NCBI RefSeq assembly: GCF_020164745.1
Contig: NZ_JAIUGV010000011.1
Coordinates: 124,001 to 188,000 of the forward strand
Length of the DNA stretch: 64,000 nt
From: Mesorhizobium sp. ES1-4
GTDB taxonomy: Bacteria; Pseudomonadota; Alphaproteobacteria; Rhizobiales; Rhizobiaceae
Direction of reading: 5' to 3'
Made by a program: the position numbers and the translations under genes. The notes under the pieces were generated by a model, which did not search any database, had not been told where the DNA came from, and was given only the letters and a program-made list of their open reading frames with translations. Below, in pieces: positions 46,949 through 54,395 of this stretch (within the stretch, counting starts at the first letter, position 1; each line of letters opens with the position of its first letter).

Positions 46949-47190
46949 ATGAATGCCGCCAATGCGACACTGCTCCACAAATTGCCGCCCCAGGCCGAGC
47001 AAAACTCCGCCTGTCGCAGCCCGCATGGCTGGCCTTCCGCGACAGCGACGCGAAGGTATGCGACGCGCTCTAGGGGACAAGGCAAGGCACGATGTACGTG
47101 CCCATGCAGGCTGCCGACGCGACCAACGCCATTCGGGATCGGGCGGTTGAGCTGGAGCCCTATGTTCGCGTCATGGCGATCGAGGAGTGA
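46949..47190 (+). pseudogene. LprI/DUF1311-like gene remnant
   Basis: Fragments of a lysozyme-inhibitor LprI (DUF1311) domain: MNAANATLLHKLPPQAEQ in one frame, then KLRLSQPAWLAFRDSDAKVC in another. An in-frame TAG (47071-47073) follows, and then MYVPMQAADATNAIRDRAVE. The 5' part with the signal peptide is not seen. At least one frameshift and one stop codon break it. Confidence 0.55.
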
Positions 47191-47212
47191 TGGGGCCATC
47201 CAGTCGGATCGG

Positions 47213-47419
47213 CTACGCCTCTACGTATTCCGCCAAGCTGACGCCTTCGGGAGTATCTTGCCCGTCGGCAAGCAAGCCCTCGATGTGGAACCGGATGGCA
47301 TCACGGATTTCGATTTTTGCCTCATCGGCAGTCGCAGCCGTTGCAATGCAGCCTGGGAGGTCCGGCACAAAAGCGGAAAAATTGTTTCCCGCTTTTTCAA
47401 TCACCACCGCGTAACGCAT
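47213..47419 (-). CDS. hicB: HicB-family antitoxin
   Basis: A 68-residue protein matching the HicB partial RNase-H-like fold: MRYAVVIEKAGNNFSAFVPD, LPGCIATAATADEA and AIRFHIEGLLADG. HicB neutralises the HicA mRNA interferase and usually represses the operon. This short form lacks the C-terminal DNA-binding part of larger HicB proteins. Its toxin gene just upstream is truncated, so the antitoxin is now orphaned. Confidence 0.82.
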   Translation of the reverse strand: MRYAVVIEKAGNNFSAFVPDLPGCIATAATADEAKIEIRDAIRFHIEGLLADGQDTPEGVSLAEYVEA

Positions 47420-47423
47420 ATAG

Positions 47424-47519
47424 TCACTCCTTCAAACCGGACTGCTTGAGGATGCTGTTCAGCGTGCCTGGCGCAACCTCTTCAGGCGGTTTGCCGGCCA
47501 AGGATACTGGGTTGACGGC
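47424..47519 (-). pseudogene. hicA toxin gene, 5'-truncated
   Basis: Only the end of a HicA toxin remains (LAGKPPEEVAPGTLNSILKQ, then SGLKE and stop), 4 nt before the hicB start. The N-terminal part with the catalytic histidine and double-stranded-RNA-binding fold is missing; the sequence is replaced at 47519 by the end of another gene. Confidence 0.7.
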
Positions 47520-48193
47520 TAAGCGGGTTCATACTCTTCCCGAAGTTTTTCCGACCTTGCCAGAATCGATGCGTACAGTTTGACGAAGTCTGATTTTTCC
47601 TGGCCGTTAAGCGGAACATCTGACGGAGCAAAAGATTGGCCACGTATCACGTCGAGAATTCTGAACTCTTCTGGGGAATATTTTCCAACTGACGACATAA
47701 TCGCCCAAAGTCCAAGCCTTGCTGCATCGGCGCCCAGCGGAGGATCTTCGGAAAAGTATGGGTAAATGATTCGATTCTTCGAATTCCCGATTGCCAAGGC
47801 CAACAGGTTTTCTACCTTGACCGTGCAGCCCAACTCTGGAAATTCGATTGCGCCCTTAACCGCAAGCATCTCAGATTTGGACGCCTCATTTGTCCATCGC
47901 CGCTTGTTATCCCACCAATCAAGGAAGCCATCCCTCAATTCCGGGTATAAGCGCTCGCGCCTCTTATTAGTAGCAATGCGCTCGGCTACAGAAACCCCGA
48001 GGTATTTCTCCCCGTTCACGTGACCTTTAGCATCGCGCCAAAAAGGCACATGAAAATCGCCCCCTTCGCTTTTTTCTCCAGCCTGTTTGCGAATCTCGTC
48101 ACGAATGTCTCCCCGTAGCATTGAAATCTGCTTCGAGTTCTCGGCAAACATGAGGGTGAGTAGCTTCCGTAAATGTATCTTTTTCAGTGACAT
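47519..48193 (-). CDS. Hypothetical protein, 224 aa
   Basis: Starting from ATG 48193 (GGAG 8 nt upstream) the product is 224 residues, charged and helical (LRKLLTLMFAENSKQISMLR, GFLDWWDNKRRWTNEASKSE, VKVENLLALAIGNSKN). No domain was recognised. Codon use looks less GC-rich than the chromosomal genes around it, which suggests transfer. Its stop codon abuts the hicA remnant, so it was probably inserted with the event that cut hicA. Confidence 0.7.
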   Translation of the reverse strand: MSLKKIHLRKLLTLMFAENSKQISMLRGDIRDEIRKQAGEKSEGGDFHVPFWRDAKGHVNGEKYLGVSVAERIATNKRRERLYPELRDGFLDWWDNKRRWTNEASKSEMLAVKGAIEFPELGCTVKVENLLALAIGNSKNRIIYPYFSEDPPLGADAARLGLWAIMSSVGKYSPEEFRILDVIRGQSFAPSDVPLNGQEKSDFVKLYASILARSEKLREEYEPA

Positions 48194-48222
48194 CAACAAT
48201 CTCCAACGGGAATGGTTGCGAA

Positions 48223-48605: not shown

Positions 48606-48980
48606 GCATACATGAACCTCTGCCTCGATCCGGCGTTTGCCAAGTCCCCACTGTTATCCACATGGCCTTGTTGACGAATCAAGTTTTTGACTTTATCTCT
48701 TTACACCTACATATGCGCACGCAGTCGTAATTTGACACCATATCTATGTGGTGAGGCTAGTCAATGCCTCTGTCGCGAGAGTTGTGGACAACCGGTTTTC
48801 CACAGCCGTCATCCTAGATTTTTTCCCTGTTTCTGTCGCTGATAGCCGAATCACCTTGGACCCGAATTCGGTGCGAGTTCAGGCGTCAGGCTCACTGACC
48901 TACTCCCTGTCTAATGCTTCCATCGGCCCGATCTTGCGACCGGACCGATGATGTTACGGTTTAGCGTCTTGTAGGCATCC
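48606..48980. other. About 375 bp without a recognisable gene, AT-richer
   Basis: Contains short palindromes such as TTGTGGACAACCGGTTTTCCAC, but no supported ORF. A 67-codon open frame at 48748-48951 lacks coding character. This stretch borders the left repeat array of the TniQ element. Confidence 0.4.
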
Positions 48981-48981
48981 G

Positions 48982-49093
48982 CAAAGTTGTGCCCCACCCC
49001 CTTCGGATCTAATTGAAATTGTTGACGAATTTTCTAGGCATTTATTCCACACCCAAAGTTGTACCCCCAGGACACCCAAAGTTGTGCCCCCAG
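48982..49093 (+). repeat. Direct-repeat array, putative left end of the TniQ/TniB element
   Basis: Two tandem copies of ACACCCAAAGTTGT[A/G]CCCCCAG at 49049-49070 and 49072-49093 (23-bp period) and a partial third copy (CAAAGTTGTGCCCCAC at 48982). Repeated transposase-binding sites at element ends are typical of Tn7- and Tn5053-like transposons, and the array lies just outside the cargo gene at 49206. Confidence 0.5.
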
Positions 49094-49205
49094 TTTCAAA
49101 TTAGCTGACGATCGGCGGCTCGGTGGTAGCTGCGGGTAGGCTGAAAGCTTCTCCAGCTGGTGGGTTGCGAAGGCAGCCCCTTCCATGACCTGGGAGGAGC
49201 CCCCG

Positions 49206-49886
49206 ATGACCTACAAGCATTCCAACCTCCGGAACCGGATTCAGGCGAAGGCCAACCTCAAACGGCTCATGCCTTGGGTAGAGATGAACATGAAGGAGTT
49301 CGACGACCAGACCTGGCAGGCAACCGGCATCTCGGAGGAGTTCTTCGCTCACATGTCGGAGGAGCGTTTCTCCGGCATCCATATCTACCCTGATCAGGTC
49401 AGGGGGTGGCATGCCGATCTCGTTTTTGAGGGCATTGGACAAGGTTACGCGGACAAGCTCGGCAACCCCGAGGACCGGCCGCTGGATACTAAGGAGAATG
49501 CGGAGAGGCACGCCATTTGGATGATGGTATCCCTGCTGCCTCATCTGAGGGCGAGGACGAAGAGCGGTTACGGCGATGCGGCGTATGTCGATTTCAAGTT
49601 CGAGAACGCGACGGTCAAAATCCCGGCGGGTGCGATCGACTACCTCATCTATCAGTACACGAAACCGGACCACACGCTGGCGGATCTCGAGTCCTATGCA
49701 AGGACGCGGCTGGCCGACATCAGCGATGCACTTCCCTTCGATGGTGCGACTACCAACCGGCACCTCAGGCGCATGCGTGAGGATCACCGTGGAGAGATCG
49801 AAAACGCGTGTGCCGCGGCCTTGGCGGTAGGGATCACGGAGTGGCAGCCGGAGGAGCCTTCACCGCCTATGGCGCTCGGCCACTGA
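49206..49886 (+). CDS. Hypothetical cargo-type protein, 226 aa
   Basis: GGGAGGAG lies 6 nt before ATG 49206, a better start than 49185. The 226-residue product is acidic, without membrane segments (NLRNRIQAKANLKRLMPWVE, FSGIHIYPDQVRGWHADLVF, YARTRLADISDALPF). Not recognised. It sits between the repeat array and tniQ, convergent with tniQ and 4 nt from its end, so it is probably a passenger of the element. Confidence 0.65.
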   Translation: MTYKHSNLRNRIQAKANLKRLMPWVEMNMKEFDDQTWQATGISEEFFAHMSEERFSGIHIYPDQVRGWHADLVFEGIGQGYADKLGNPEDRPLDTKENAERHAIWMMVSLLPHLRARTKSGYGDAAYVDFKFENATVKIPAGAIDYLIYQYTKPDHTLADLESYARTRLADISDALPFDGATTNRHLRRMREDHRGEIENACAAALAVGITEWQPEEPSPPMALGH

Positions 49887-49890
49887 GCGT

Positions 49891-51897
49891 CTATGGGCGG
49901 ACGGTCAGACTTTTGCCTGCCGCCGGGTTACATTCGAGGTTAGATGTAATGGGCGTCCGTTCCGCGGCCTTCAGCTTGCGCAGCGCCTTCAGCGCGGATT
50001 CCTGATCGTAGTCCCAGGCAGCAGGATCGGTGCTTTCAAACTCGTCGACGGCCTCCCGGCGGTAGAAGAACGCTCCGGCGGATGCGGGTACAAGCTCGGG
50101 CAGGATGCCTGCCAACTTCAGGGTGGCTCTCACGCGCTTATGGTGAAGGCCGGTTTGCTGGCACAGTTCGCCCAGCGAAACGTAGTCGACAAGGAATGCT
50201 GCAATGCTCTCCATCGCCACGAGAGGTAGCATACGCCGCGCGTCATGACTGTATTCCTCGACCATCTCGAGATGGCCTTCGGCGATCAGCTTGTTGATGC
50301 CCCGGTCGTGCGCGCCGGGGATGAAGTCGCGAGCCTCTTCCTTTGTGAGGTGGGTACGCGTTCCCCGCGACCTGATGATCTTCGTAACTTCCTCTGCATC
50401 GAGAAGGAGGGCGCCGTAGTCTGTCCGGCCCTTCAGTCGGCCCTTCCACTTGAGTTGATCCGAGAAGATCATCGCGAGCACGTCGGGGATCGTGCACGTC
50501 GCCACCTTGCGGACGCCTGACACGTCCATCTGTCTTTCGGTGAGTTCGGAAACCTCGACGGCTCCCTTGAAGATCTGTTCCCTGACACGCTCGACCTCCT
50601 CAAGGGAAAAGCGGCGCTTGCCATTCCTCCGGTCAGTGTCGGCAAGGACGCGGATATGGCCGTGAACGACCATGTCGTTCAGGTGCATCCTCGGAACGCC
50701 CAGAACCTTTTCGACCGCCGGCGCTGTGACCGCTTTACGGAGCTCCGACACCACAGAGTCAATCTCCGCTGCTTTCACGAGAATTCGGTGGTCGAGTTTT
50801 CCAGACTGGTCGGCAGCTTCCTCAATCCCGAGGCGCTTGAACAGGCGGCGGATGCTCAGGGCGTGCATGCCGGAGTCCCGGGCGGCGGTCCGGACGGTGT
50901 GCACCTTGCGCTCCGTCGCCGTTACCCCGAGCACGTCCGTCCCCGGCTCGACGGGCATCGTCTCGAGCGCGAACTCGCGGACCAGATCCCGGGGCTTGGC
51001 CCAGGCCGGGTCCTTGGCGGTTTTTTGGAGGAGACCGTAAGCGTAGCCGTAGGTGTCCCGTGGTCCCCAGAAGCCTCGTGTCGAGGATTGCGCATCCGTC
51101 AGTCTCTGCAGCAATTGCCGCAACGCTGTCTCACCGGCGCTTGCGATCTCGAATCCAGCATCTGCGGCAGCTGCCCAATCTAGAGCGTTGAACTTCGAAG
51201 TGGGGACTTTCGGCGTATGCAGGGCGGATACTCCCAGCGCCTCGCAGAACGGGGCCGCGACGAATAGCGGAAGGTCGTCCAGCCAATTCCCTTCCGATCG
51301 ACGACCTTCGATCCGGTCCTGCAGCCACGCCTGGAATGGCGACTGTCCGGCTTGTGGCGCCTCATCCGCGTGCTGGTGAAGTTCCGGGATCAGAATGCGC
51401 ATCGTCTGGTTGAAATCGAATGGCGCGAACGGAATCCGCTCTGGACTGGTGACGGTCAGATGGACACGGTGCCGGCCACAAGACCGGAAATGCGAGATCG
51501 TCCATTCGAGGCGCAGCCACGGCCTGCTATACGAGACGCCGTCGTACTTCTGCATGTCCTCGATCGCGCAATGGGGACAGAACCTGAAATACGTCCTGTT
51601 CACGGACAGCCTCGGGAGAACCTCTCCTGCCACCTGATAATGTCGCGAATTCTTCTCGAATGGAGTGTATCGGAGAAGCTTTTCGATGTCGGCACTTCCC
51701 AGGATGGCGATCCTCCGGATTTCGGACTCTTCCGCCTTGTCGAGATTCCTGTTTGCGATCGCCATGTCCCTGAGAAGGTATTTCAGCGAGCGACCATTCA
51801 CGGCCGCCAGCCGGGATGCGAAGCCTGCCGCAGTCTCCTGGTGTTCGAGCGGATAGGCGAAAGCGAGAGGCTTCACCTCTTTCTTCAGTACGCGCAT
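49891..51897 (-). CDS. tniQ: TniQ-family transposition protein
   Basis: A 668-residue TniQ-domain protein, longer than the classic 400-residue TniQ. The N-terminal part (AYPLEHQETAAGFASRLAAV) precedes a zinc-finger-like region (FRFCPHCAIEDM with FRSCGRHRVHL); the remaining C-terminal 350 residues contain helical DNA-binding-like segments such as LSIRRLFKRLGIEEAADQSG and CQQTGLHHKRVRATLKLAGI. TniQ/TnsD proteins select target sites together with the TniB/TnsC ATPase. Its start lies 3 nt from the tniB stop. Confidence 0.83.
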   Translation of the reverse strand: MRVLKKEVKPLAFAYPLEHQETAAGFASRLAAVNGRSLKYLLRDMAIANRNLDKAEESEIRRIAILGSADIEKLLRYTPFEKNSRHYQVAGEVLPRLSVNRTYFRFCPHCAIEDMQKYDGVSYSRPWLRLEWTISHFRSCGRHRVHLTVTSPERIPFAPFDFNQTMRILIPELHQHADEAPQAGQSPFQAWLQDRIEGRRSEGNWLDDLPLFVAAPFCEALGVSALHTPKVPTSKFNALDWAAAADAGFEIASAGETALRQLLQRLTDAQSSTRGFWGPRDTYGYAYGLLQKTAKDPAWAKPRDLVREFALETMPVEPGTDVLGVTATERKVHTVRTAARDSGMHALSIRRLFKRLGIEEAADQSGKLDHRILVKAAEIDSVVSELRKAVTAPAVEKVLGVPRMHLNDMVVHGHIRVLADTDRRNGKRRFSLEEVERVREQIFKGAVEVSELTERQMDVSGVRKVATCTIPDVLAMIFSDQLKWKGRLKGRTDYGALLLDAEEVTKIIRSRGTRTHLTKEEARDFIPGAHDRGINKLIAEGHLEMVEEYSHDARRMLPLVAMESIAAFLVDYVSLGELCQQTGLHHKRVRATLKLAGILPELVPASAGAFFYRREAVDEFESTDPAAWDYDQESALKALRKLKAAERTPITSNLECNPAAGKSLTVRP

Positions 51898-51899
51898 GA

Positions 51900-52958
51900 T
51901 CAGTCTTCCTCGACTTCCAGGAAGAGGCCCGGATCAAGCCTCATGAAGTCGTCGGCCAGGAAGATGTTCATCTCCGGCCTGCCGCGGGCGTGAGAATGCG
52001 CGGCATACGCACGTGCGAGAAAATTGCGGGTGAGTTCGGTAGAGCGCTTCCTCGCCGCCTGCTGAATGCCAGCGAGGACGACCTGAGTGATGCGACCGTA
52101 CCGATAGCGCGCGGCGTGGGCGATCCGCTCCGGAACATCGCTCTGAATCGCCTGGGTAGGGTCGATGTGTGCCGCCTCGCACATTTCTCTGGTGATCCTG
52201 ATGACTAGGTCGCGTTCTTCGGGATGCGAGAGATCAACGTCTGGAAGGGGCAGGGGCATATGCCGACGCTCGAACTGCTCGTCCAACTGGGCGATCTTCG
52301 TGATCTCGGGCATCCCGGACATGACGAAGCTGACTGGCCAGGCTTGATAGTTCAGCACGCCCTTCAGCGCCTTTCGCAACTTTTCCCGGTCGTGATCGGT
52401 TTGCGTAAGGTTCAAAAGGTGCTGGGTCTCGTCCAGATGGATCAGCAGCACCTTCCTCAGATGAAGCTGCGATGGAAGGATATGCCAGACCTCGCCCTGT
52501 TCGAGGTTGCGGGTGATCTCGTAGCCAATGGCCTCGAGGATCGCGATGCCAAGAAACTTGAGAGTGGCCGGCCCCATCAGCGAATAGAATACGGAAGGAT
52601 AGATGGTGCCGAAGGTTCGGCGGAGTGGCTTGAACAGGGGATGCTGTGCGATGATCCGCTGCGAGATGGAAGTCTTGCCCGCACCGCTGTCCCCCGTGAC
52701 AACGAAAAGGCGTCCGTCGTCGCGCCGGTCTCCCTTTTTCGCCATCATGTTCGTCACGAACTCGCCGAAGCTGTCCGTAGCAACGCGGTCGCGGCCGCAT
52801 TCGACGTAGACGCCCTTAGCCCGTTCGAGGACTTCCTTGACGTACTGATCGTCCTCGGAGAGCCTGCCTGTGAGCTCCTGAAGATAGTCCTCGTCGGACA
52901 TGTCGTCGTCCCAATTGGACGGAAGGTTCTTGCCACGGCGCATCTTACTCATCGTCAT
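51900..52958 (-). CDS. tniB: TniB/TnsC-like AAA+ ATPase
   Basis: A 352-residue AAA+ ATPase of transposition regulators. Walker A is FVVTGDSGAGKTSIS (about 86-100), Walker B is KVLLIHLDETQHLLNL (about 168-183) and SFVMSGMPEITK contains a sensor motif. TniB/TnsC recruits the transposase to the TniQ-chosen target. It overlaps the 3' end of the transposase remnant by 14 nt, in the classic tniA-tniB-tniQ order. Confidence 0.87.
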   Translation of the reverse strand: MTMSKMRRGKNLPSNWDDDMSDEDYLQELTGRLSEDDQYVKEVLERAKGVYVECGRDRVATDSFGEFVTNMMAKKGDRRDDGRLFVVTGDSGAGKTSISQRIIAQHPLFKPLRRTFGTIYPSVFYSLMGPATLKFLGIAILEAIGYEITRNLEQGEVWHILPSQLHLRKVLLIHLDETQHLLNLTQTDHDREKLRKALKGVLNYQAWPVSFVMSGMPEITKIAQLDEQFERRHMPLPLPDVDLSHPEERDLVIRITREMCEAAHIDPTQAIQSDVPERIAHAARYRYGRITQVVLAGIQQAARKRSTELTRNFLARAYAAHSHARGRPEMNIFLADDFMRLDPGLFLEVEED

Positions 52959-53195
52959 CCCCGTCGTAGGTGTTCATGCTGCGGCTGCGGCGCTTCTTGA
53001 TCTCGGCCACTTTCGCGTCCGTCGGGTCGGCGGGGGTCGGACCGGGGCGGGTCTTCTTGGTCTTGCCGATCACGCGTCCGATTTCGTGGTCCTCCGACTG
53101 TTCGGCCGCGTGATTGATGGAGCCCATCGCAGCACGACCGCCGCGCTCCATGATCTTCTCGAGAATGTCGAGGACTGCGCGGGTGAGCGGCAGGT
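52945..53195 (-). pseudogene. Transposase (TniA/TnsB-like) C-terminal tail
   Basis: About 80 codons that precede and overlap tniB, ending in KVAEIKKRRSRSMNTYDG and an acidic tail. The catalytic DDE domain of the transposase is missing; at about 53195 the reading frame runs instead into a nucleoside-sugar epimerase-like sequence. That this is the transposase tail is inferred from gene order and overlap, not from a recognised motif. Confidence 0.5.
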
Positions 53196-53934
53196 CGCTC
53201 GCCTTCCCGATCGCGGCGGCGATTTCCGAGACCGTCAGAGGCGTCGCGTCCGCTACGTTCAGTACGCGCTGCAGCCGGGGATGTCATGCAGATTTCCGCG
53301 AGGTCAGCGATACCGCCCGCGCTGCTCGTATGGAAGACACTCCTGACGCCAAGGCAAACAGGGATGCGGTCCCGTCGGTCCAAAGCCCGTTTTACGAACC
53401 ACCATTCGCGCGGGTGTCTGGCAAGCGGGCCGTAGATTGCGCAAGGCCTAAGGATCGTGACGGGGACGCCGGCCGAGAGCAGGGCATGCTCCATGGCGAT
53501 TTTTCGCGTCGAATAGGTCTGCGGTCCCGGCTCGACGGTACGAGTTTCCTCGCTGATCGGTCCGTCGAAGACAGGGAACCCAGTGTTCTGGCTTCGTCCA
53601 GCGACCTGCCAACCTCATCAGCGTAGACGCTGGACGACGAGACGACGACCAGCGAGCCGATCCGGTTGCAGGCGGCGAGCAGGTCGATGGCATCCGGCAA
53701 GTCATAGGCGGTGGGAACGAATACGGCGTCTATCGGGCATTCGAGGTCACGGATAACCCCTTCATAGCTGCCATTCGTCCCCTCGATCGGGAGAAGGCCG
53801 CGTTGCAGGAGGGCCGCGGGCGGTATCCTGTTGCCGCGCGTCGCACCCCAAACCTGCCATCCGCTTGCAAGCAGTCGGTCGGTGACAGATGCGCCAAGCT
53901 GACCTGTCACCCCAAAAACCAGGGCCTTGTTCAT
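53196..53934 (-). pseudogene. NAD-dependent epimerase/dehydratase gene, frameshifted and 3'-truncated
   Basis: ATG 53934 starts MNKALVFGVTGQLGASVTDR, a Rossmann GxxGxxG, with SSSVYADEVGRSLDEARTL later. A frameshift near 53578 continues in another frame (GPISEETRTVEPGPQTYSTR, then KIAMEHALLSAGVPVTILRP, the YxxxK region). A second shift near 53285 leads into LNVADATPLTVSEIAAAIGK and then the transposase-tail frame. The epimerase 3' end is gone. It would have acted on a nucleotide sugar or related substrate. Confidence 0.75.
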
Positions 53935-54395
53935 CGGGTCAGTTTAGGCGACTACGCGTTTGGATCAACTTTTGCCCACTCAGTTCCGATCTTCCACCTG
54001 ATTGGCGGTTGCTGCCGAAGGCCGCGGACTGGCAAGTACGTCGAGCGATCAGTGCCGTGTCGTCGAGGGAAGCACGTCGATCGCCTCAAAGCATGACGCG
54101 CTGTGACAGGGCTAGCGGTTTCCATCAGCCGCTGCCTACGGCCTGGCTGCTCCGCGATGAGATCTTCGATCCGACAGGCAACGCCAGCGATACTCGCTTT
54201 CACCTTGTAGCTACACTGAAAATCAATCCCGAGCTCGTCCGATTCCTTGATGGTTTTCTCGATGACCATGTGGTTGTTGCTGTCACCGCCGTGCCGCCCG
54301 CACAGCTCGAAGGCGAATATTGAAAAGGGGAGAACTATAGATACGGCGTTGGACTTCTGCTATCGTCGTCCGGTCGGTGCACAAGCGGGGGCGCG
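53935..54395. other. 460 bp without a confident gene
   Basis: A minus-strand open frame of 105 codons (53952-54269) begins with coding-like sequence (VIEKTIKESDELGIDFQCSY) but its second half is not protein-like, and no ribosome site or family was recognised. It may be a fragment. Confidence 0.4.

Follow-up and report, generated by a model that had tools for sequence, protein, structure and literature searches.

A Tn7-like transposon inserted past nrdJ in Mesorhizobium, now most likely an immobile remnant

Introduction

Tn5053 creates a 5-bp duplication and, to our knowledge, has no TnsA. It targets plasmid resolution sites (PMC11406308, Table 1). Tn7 inserts ~20 bp downstream of the glmS stop codon, where the site of its selector TnsD is described as the last 36 bp of the gene (PMC2918618), and recognition of attachment sites has been proposed as the role of the long C-terminal extensions of TnsD-type proteins (PMC10293859). 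A TniQ/TnsD protein directs Tn7017 to parE, and the Tn7-like attachment sites named in a 2024 review are glmS, yhiN, comM, parE and tRNA genes (PMC11406308). Here we describe a locus of Mesorhizobium sp. ES1-4, contained in a 64,000-nucleotide stretch of its genome (contig NZ_JAIUGV010000011.1, positions 124,001 to 188,000; hereafter the window), that we read as the left part of a Tn7-like transposon inserted past nrdJ, the gene for a vitamin B12-dependent ribonucleotide reductase.

The element, like those that use these attachment sites, inserts behind or within a single conserved chromosomal locus, but nrdJ is not named among them. The string "nrd" is absent from the main texts of PMC11406308, Faure 2023 and Benler 2021, supplements being outside that search, and a literature search, with most subscription papers and preprints and all supplements outside its scope, turned up no paper describing nrdJ as a target of Tn7-like elements. 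A co-mention of nrdJ and Tn7 (PMC5962746) was set aside, Tn7 being there part of a laboratory strain genotype. As a Tn7-like landing site nrdJ is apparently new, while the window copy itself is an ordinary relic. Through this family nrdJ, a gene of DNA precursor synthesis, would join the short list of safe sites for Tn7-like transposons, and the family offers exact ends, duplications and a testable TniQ sequence.

Results and Discussion

Two ends and a duplicated target site

The locus has a left end, a right end, a 5-bp duplication, an empty counterpart site in relatives, complete homologues in other genomes and a position behind nrdJ that recurs between genomes. We consider it highly probable that it represents the left portion of a Tn7-like transposon, which was inserted past nrdJ by way of TnsABC and TniQ and is now most likely an immobile remnant. 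The genome that holds the window (G000; genomes, contigs and loci carry G, C and L numbers below) is a 46-contig draft of 6.46 Mb rated 100% complete, with the left end on the window's own contig, C3, and the right end on C1.

The left end spans 48970..49093 (+ strand), begins with the terminus TGTAGGCATCCG and holds three sites of TnsB type, whose cores lie at 48982, 49054 and 49077 (spacing 72 + 23). Its repeats had drawn the attention of an earlier note made from the sequence of this DNA, which took them for a possible left end. The repeat ACACCCAAAGTTGT is present in exactly two copies, at 49049 and 49072, with a 23-bp period (0.09 matches expected; 0 of 100 shuffles reach two), and the core CAAAGTTGTGCCCC has a third copy that begins at 48982, 72 bp before the pair. 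Over 121 bp (window 48970–49090) the end is 88% identical to an end in Aquibium carbonis (L002), where the similarity starts adjoining TGTAGGCATCCG and the matching end lies on the far side of that element's own passenger gene.

A scan with the core motif across 11 element sets recovered the three-site spacing 0/72–73/95–96 at the left ends of G000, G390, G469 and G628.C21 (the last being the same element as that of A. carbonis). Two of the three sites are present in G597; the remaining six sets, several of them cut by contig ends, yielded no left-end cluster. The site matrix, which was built from the window's sites and those of L002, scores the window's left end at 28.6–30.3, against a maximum of 18.8 in 10 shuffles. 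Two further clusters (L009 10627–10682 and L091 12853–12937) were set aside as probable chance. The repeats are TnsB-type sites, presumably bound by TnsB, and belong to a true left end, where the earlier note had suspected one. The start that the note gave to the module, 48982, lies 12 nt inside the true terminus at 48970; the end it gave, 53195, is near the point where tnsB homology stops.

On C1 the right end lies 15 nt past the nrdJ stop codon and contains two TnsB-type sites. Its terminus, TGTAGGGATCCGCAAAGTTGTGCCCC at C1:2279, differs from the left terminus by one base (12-nt termini), and directly after it stands CGTCT, which also immediately precedes the left end; this target-site duplication occupies 48965..48969 (unstranded), with its second copy at C1:2280–2284. 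The C1 gene encodes an NrdJ of 1259 residues that matches NCBIfam NF005736 over its full length (2314 bits, cut-off 1737) and the Pfam class II N-terminal domain (E 1.5e-43). With up to two mismatches the site pattern finds six matches in the genome: three belong to the left end, C1 has two and C45 one. Reversed as a control, the pattern gives four, which places the lone C45 match at chance level.

The chromosomal flank that the insertion interrupted, just downstream of nrdJ, is at 48922..48969 (+) and has matches in genus relatives. The nrdJ flank was read in 29 of 60 such relatives, plus G105. In 13 of the 29 the flank is matched over 27–46 bp at 82–94% identity, on the same strand and 10–39 nt from the nrdJ end; in one further relative (L038) the matches are inverted. 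Pieces of the outer flank (within window 46976–47503) are also matched within 1.5 kb of nrdJ, on the same strand, in 12 of the 29. In several relatives, for example L050 and L058, an uninterrupted site aligns with both flanks joined at CGTCT. The matching termini, the CGTCT on both sides and the uninterrupted relatives therefore point to one insertion that duplicated 5 bp.

A transposon family that recurs behind nrdJ

TniB relatives (E ≤ 1e-30) occur in 18 of 394 family-sample genomes and 4 of 297 order-sample genomes, G000 being in both counts. The earlier note had suggested looking for a complete element with the same repeat. In A. carbonis the gene set is complete: tnsA, tnsB, tniB and tniQ stand in a row, with the 88%-identical left end, and TniB and TniQ are 77% and 75% identical to those of the window. 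A near-identical copy of the element was absent from plasmid records, phage and E. coli records being outside that search.

Sequence downstream of nrdJ was read in 12 genomes, G000 and 11 relatives. Ten of the relatives have a TniB relative, and the eleventh, G317, was added with an nrdJ flank that matched C1. Nine of the 18 genomes with TniB matches (G365, G407, G447, G517, G553, G589, G675, G710 and G725) were left out of this set; their TniB matches are either 28–34% identical or a broken fragment (55%). Behind nrdJ the right-end motif pair is present in 10 of the 12 genomes; its terminus, if placed 12 nt ahead of the first site, falls 12–17 nt past the stop codon. In G196 and G655, which have the most distant TniQs (34% and 27%), the motif was not found behind nrdJ. 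In all ten genomes that have a right end behind nrdJ, the 3' end of the gene encodes MVRNGTC(E/L)KCDTCG(A/S)TSGCS.

In three genomes a left and a right end could be matched to each other at nrdJ, namely G000, G390 (GTCTT on both sides of an element of 117,768 bases) and G469 (CGCTG on both sides, 33,817 bases). The nrdJ-side end and the tns genes are both on contig C146 in G628; they are on different contigs, linked by motif only, in G105, G562, G567, G243 and G597. A search of 394 genomes for the right-end pair, whose pattern was drawn from the same ends and is thus no independent test, gave six matches in five genomes and none in the reversed control. Five of the six are at nrdJ, including two on C1, one of which is an inner pair. 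The sixth (L144, G567:C299:33244–33274) lies, by eye, only some bases away from oppositely oriented sites that resemble a left end, an arrangement that suggests two elements in tandem.

One related element sits at a different gene. The G597 element (L100, on G597:C12, 4379–18924, 14.5 kb) is flanked by the duplication CGCAT and adjoins the 3' end of a gene for an EamA-type transporter (Pfam EamA, E 4.3e-32), and the nrdJ of the same genome carries a separate right end. Pairing the G597 left end with that nrdJ right end gives a duplication of 2 of 5 bases and was rejected; with the EamA-side right end all 5 agree. A TniQ tree, whose root serves the drawing only, separates G597 and G655 (99/96) from ten rows that comprise the other nrdJ-site rows, L002 and G196; within these the branching order has partly weak support, and the long branches make it unsure. 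G597 is a target switch within the family, and its TniQ at an EamA-type gene makes TniQ target switching directly testable. Insertion sites were not found for the elements of G196, G655 and L002. In G243 (L010) nrdA/nrdB were rejected as the neighbour of the element: an insertion sequence-like fragment lies between, by eye, and nrdJ on another contig has the right end.

Degenerate copies of the nrdJ 3' end were seen inside the right end, 67–148 nt past the stop codon, in G562, G567 and G105 (L126, L127 and L125) among 12 elements examined. They read M.RN.TCE.., GTC..C..CG.T and G.CEK.D.CG and score above all 100 mononucleotide shuffles. A corresponding match in G000 starts 4 nt past the nrdJ stop codon and beats its shuffles by one point; it was not counted. 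These copies may be captured target, a regulatory decoy or a recombination scar.

Intact TniQ and TniB, a lost transposase core

Within the ends two genes are uninterrupted, which agrees with the earlier note. The tniQ gene (49891..51897, − strand) encodes a TnsD-like target selector of 668 aa (Pfam TniQ, E 1.7e-18), and tniB (51900..52958, −) encodes a TnsC-like AAA+ ATPase of 352 aa (Pfam TniB, E 4.9e-13). TniQ residues C107, C110, C140 and H143 are invariant across 12 aligned homologues and were taken for a zinc finger. Its long C-terminal extension contains a weak helix-turn-helix match, below the Pfam cut-off, and a structure prediction of the C-terminus from two sequences has a mean pLDDT (predicted local distance difference test) of 34. 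The Walker A motif of TniB is GDSGAGKT, the other nine aligned homologues having E in place of D, and its Walker B motif includes D176 and E177.

The transposase gene has fared differently. A tnsB 3' remnant (52945..53214, −) retains the C-terminal tail only, corresponding to about residues 671–750 of the L002 TnsB, and ends in SMNTYDGDDDE; its open frame extends over 52945–53283 (−). Eighty remnant residues (52948–53187) align at 64% identity with residues 671–750 of the complete, 750-aa L002 TnsB. In that protein, residues 315–448 carry motifs that we take to be the DDE catalytic core. Because the tail aligns only with residues 671–750, the catalytic core has been lost from the window, as the note had stated. 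Missing here are tnsA and ~670 TnsB residues. Homology to tnsB stops at a breakpoint (53190..53214, unstranded), beyond which an NAD-dependent epimerase gene with frameshifts follows. This pseudogene (53215..53934, −), located where tnsA and tnsB were deleted, runs, by eye, through three frames and matches Pfam Epimerase with its N-terminal piece only (E 3.7e-06).

This junction could in theory be an assembly error in a strain that carries a complete element, given that the genome is a draft, that the element is split over two contigs and that frameshifts seem to break the epimerase remnant. In that case the assembly should hold a complete cognate tnsA/tnsB somewhere else, yet a search of G000 with the L002 TnsB returned only the tail in the window and one distant element on C46, at 25–28% identity, and we judge an assembly error very unlikely. 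A full cognate transposase, which the earlier note had advised seeking elsewhere in the genome, is not among these hits. Since no cognate transposase was found in the genome, self-movement has most likely been lost.

The second Tn7-like element, on C46 (L035 6224–12356), has a TniQ by Pfam and a TnsB by distant similarity; by eye it also has a 234-aa TnsA-like protein and a 331-aa AAA protein.

The surviving genes do not look relaxed. The ratio of nonsynonymous to synonymous substitutions (dN/dS) between window and L002 is 0.10 for tniQ and 0.14 for tniB, rough values given a dS >1. Changes unique to the window or to L002 number 27/53, 30/44 and 28/51 in tniQ with three outgroups (27/53 with G562) and 21/16, 18/16 and 21/20 in tniB; the window thus has the smaller number in tniQ with every outgroup and a similar number in tniB. 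Evolution of tniB and tniQ without relaxation would fit a recent loss, and it neither proves nor excludes a kept function. One such function would be use of TniB and TniQ in trans with the TnsA and TnsB of another element, in which case the locus would be a living non-autonomous transposon. Both ends and both reading frames look intact, tniQ is not accelerated (27 window-only against 53 L002-only changes), and the C46 element offers a TnsB. That TnsB is, however, only 25–28% identical, the site pattern of the nrdJ family has no match on C46, and no nearer TnsB was found in a genome rated complete; we regard this use in trans as very unlikely. Action on a distant partner, which the earlier note had raised, is unsupported: no cognate TnsB was found in the genome, and the site pattern occurs elsewhere only on C1 or at chance level.

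It is also conceivable that the remaining genes form a guard of the site, with TniQ holding the nrdJ end, TniB assembling there and the TnsB tail dismantling or blocking TniB, so that incoming relatives are excluded. The survivors are a selector, an ATPase and only the tail of TnsB, a stretch outside the alignment with TnsB domains of solved structure, and the frame of the tail is open and ends in the family motif. In ShCAST a C-terminal TnsB hook is reported to contact the TnsC filament (PMC9876797), and by analogy the surviving tail may be the equivalent of that hook. If the genes did act so, transposition immunity would become a host or element trait that blocks related cargo elements at nrdJ. 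A simple deletion would give the same gene set, though, and only one such copy has been seen; moreover, the operon has lost its upstream part, and a scan of 48800–54000 for sigma-70-type promoters gave 0 matches against 1.1 expected in shuffles. We hold a guard function to be highly improbable.

The remnant reading would account for the locus as follows. In intact relatives, by analogy with Tn7 TnsD at glmS, the long TniQ would bind the conserved nrdJ 3' coding end and then recruit the ATPase TniB, which would call in TnsA and TnsB; these would cleave at the repeat-bearing ends and place the element immediately behind nrdJ, leaving the gene unharmed. In G000 a deletion or rearrangement would have taken tnsA and ~670 TnsB residues and fused the rest to the epimerase pseudogene. 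TniB and TniQ are then most likely passengers heading to decay. Both ends look usable, and an incoming related element could in principle mobilise the remnant in trans.

Several observations weigh against reading the locus as one such immobile remnant. C3 and C1 were assembled separately, and an attempt to overlap them failed, their 400-bp ends having no 16-mer in common; the link between them is drawn from the matching ends, the duplication and the flanks. Joined without rearrangement, the two would imply an insertion of at least 71.5 kb (69,241 bases of C3 and 2,279 of C1), and a mosaic one: window 53284–64000 matches 11 of 12 genomes only in scattered pieces, and a 2.8-kb piece of it sits 1.1 Mb from nrdJ in G329. 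C1 has a second, inner right-end-like site pair (L034 2134–2182), ~100 bp inside the true end, which indicates that more than one insertion event was involved. The terminal bases on the nrdJ side vary between TGT (5 of 10), TGG (4 of 10) and TAG (1 of 10), provided that the terminus always precedes the first site by 12 nt. The G597 element, with a TniQ 40% identical, sits at another gene, and in tniB and tniQ no decay is visible yet.

Comparison with known systems

A TnsB profile from 11 sequences matches seven TnsB-containing chains in the PDB (E 7e-53 to 2e-16), the best-chain alignment covering profile positions 178–670. Mu-transpos_C is found in 7 of the 11 TnsB members and PF08722 TnsA in 3 of 10 TnsA members (best E 1.7e-07); neither is found in the L002 proteins. 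The TnsA profile hits no TnsA chain in the PDB, only two unrelated weak matches. The TniB profile matches TnsC of Tn6677 (E 1.7e-12) and Tn7 (E 5.4e-05), and the TniQ profile reaches TnsD of Tn7 marginally (PDB 8glu, E 0.057).

With Tn7 the element shares insertion shortly past the stop codon of a conserved gene, the 5-bp duplication, a fixed orientation with the right end at the gene, several TnsB-type sites per end and, in relatives, a gene set of TnsA, TnsB, TnsC and TnsD type. The copy described here has a TniB/TnsC ATPase, a TniQ selector, sites at both ends with the duplication, and a site-specific insertion; TnsA and TnsB are present in relatives, whereas the window has the TnsB tail only and no TnsA. 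The family differs from Tn7 in its target, nrdJ rather than glmS, with insertion 12–17 nt past the stop codon, and in its selector, of ~626–670 aa in the aligned relatives with a right end at nrdJ (the G390 start is unclear), which is only weakly similar to TnsD; the window copy differs further in the absence of tnsA and nearly all of tnsB. It is not an autonomous transposon, the TnsB core being absent in cis and no cognate being found elsewhere in the genome.

The type I-F3 CRISPR-associated transposons (Tn6677 and the Pseudoalteromonas TnsAB) provide the best-scoring matches for the TnsB and TniB profiles. No cas genes or second TniQ were noticed in reading-frame lists and family scans, no profile search having been aimed at them in relatives. 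The parE-homing Tn7017 branch is alike in TniQ/TnsD homing but differs in the target gene. Likeness to Tn5053/Tn402 (tniABQR) lies in the gene names tniB and tniQ and in the 5-bp duplication; TnsA in the relatives and the chromosomal nrdJ site set the family apart. Of the Tn7/Tn5053-like label in the earlier note, the truncated Tn7-type element stands, with TnsA in relatives and homing behind a gene, while Tn5053-like behaviour does not.

Passenger, cargo and neighbouring sequences

Between the left end and tniQ, and convergent with the latter, lies a gene of 233 aa and unknown family (49185..49886, +), which by this position is part of the element, as the earlier note had surmised. Pfam, NCBIfam, PADLOC and PHROGs gave no hit to it within the applied cut-offs, and among 385 class-sample genomes it matches only G000 itself. 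Its one homologue, a distant one, is a gene at the same position beside the G196 tniQ (25% identity, E 3e-11 in a two-sequence comparison). Relatives of TniQ or of the passenger were not confirmed in viral contigs; the end motif occurs in eight of these.

The inner C1 pair has a parallel in G317 (L085 1096–1200), where the same two-gene cargo as on C1 (292 aa and 240 aa, the latter a borderline UPRTase match) follows nrdJ directly; the 100 kb examined around it contained no recognised tns gene. The inner pair and the G317 cargo are older relics at the nrdJ site. By eye, a conserved stretch, ~CCTGA[CT]GCGTCAC..ATCTCGCTCAACG...GCTC, follows nrdJ or the right end in L043, L044, L046, L125, L126, L128 and L131. 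It occurs with and without tns genes and may be the end of another mobile element. In the chromosomal flank, window 47519–48196 (−) holds a 225-aa open reading frame with no Pfam match.

In A. carbonis a Shango-type set (SngA, SngB and SngC models) stands beside tnsA, the right end of that element not having been found. A gene for an FtsH-like AAA protein with an M41 peptidase domain lies near the tns genes of G105 (L009 12216–14288), G243 (L010 12863–14866), G196 (L011 14305–16386), G469 (L099 11881–13674) and G628, which has two copies (L093 6252–7841 and L094 7032–8864). With the Shango set and these FtsH-like genes, the nrdJ site may be a hotspot of defence cargo in this bacterial family. 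The FtsH-like gene is possibly a defence gene; its family was assigned from the G105 protein, which also scores against IetA models.

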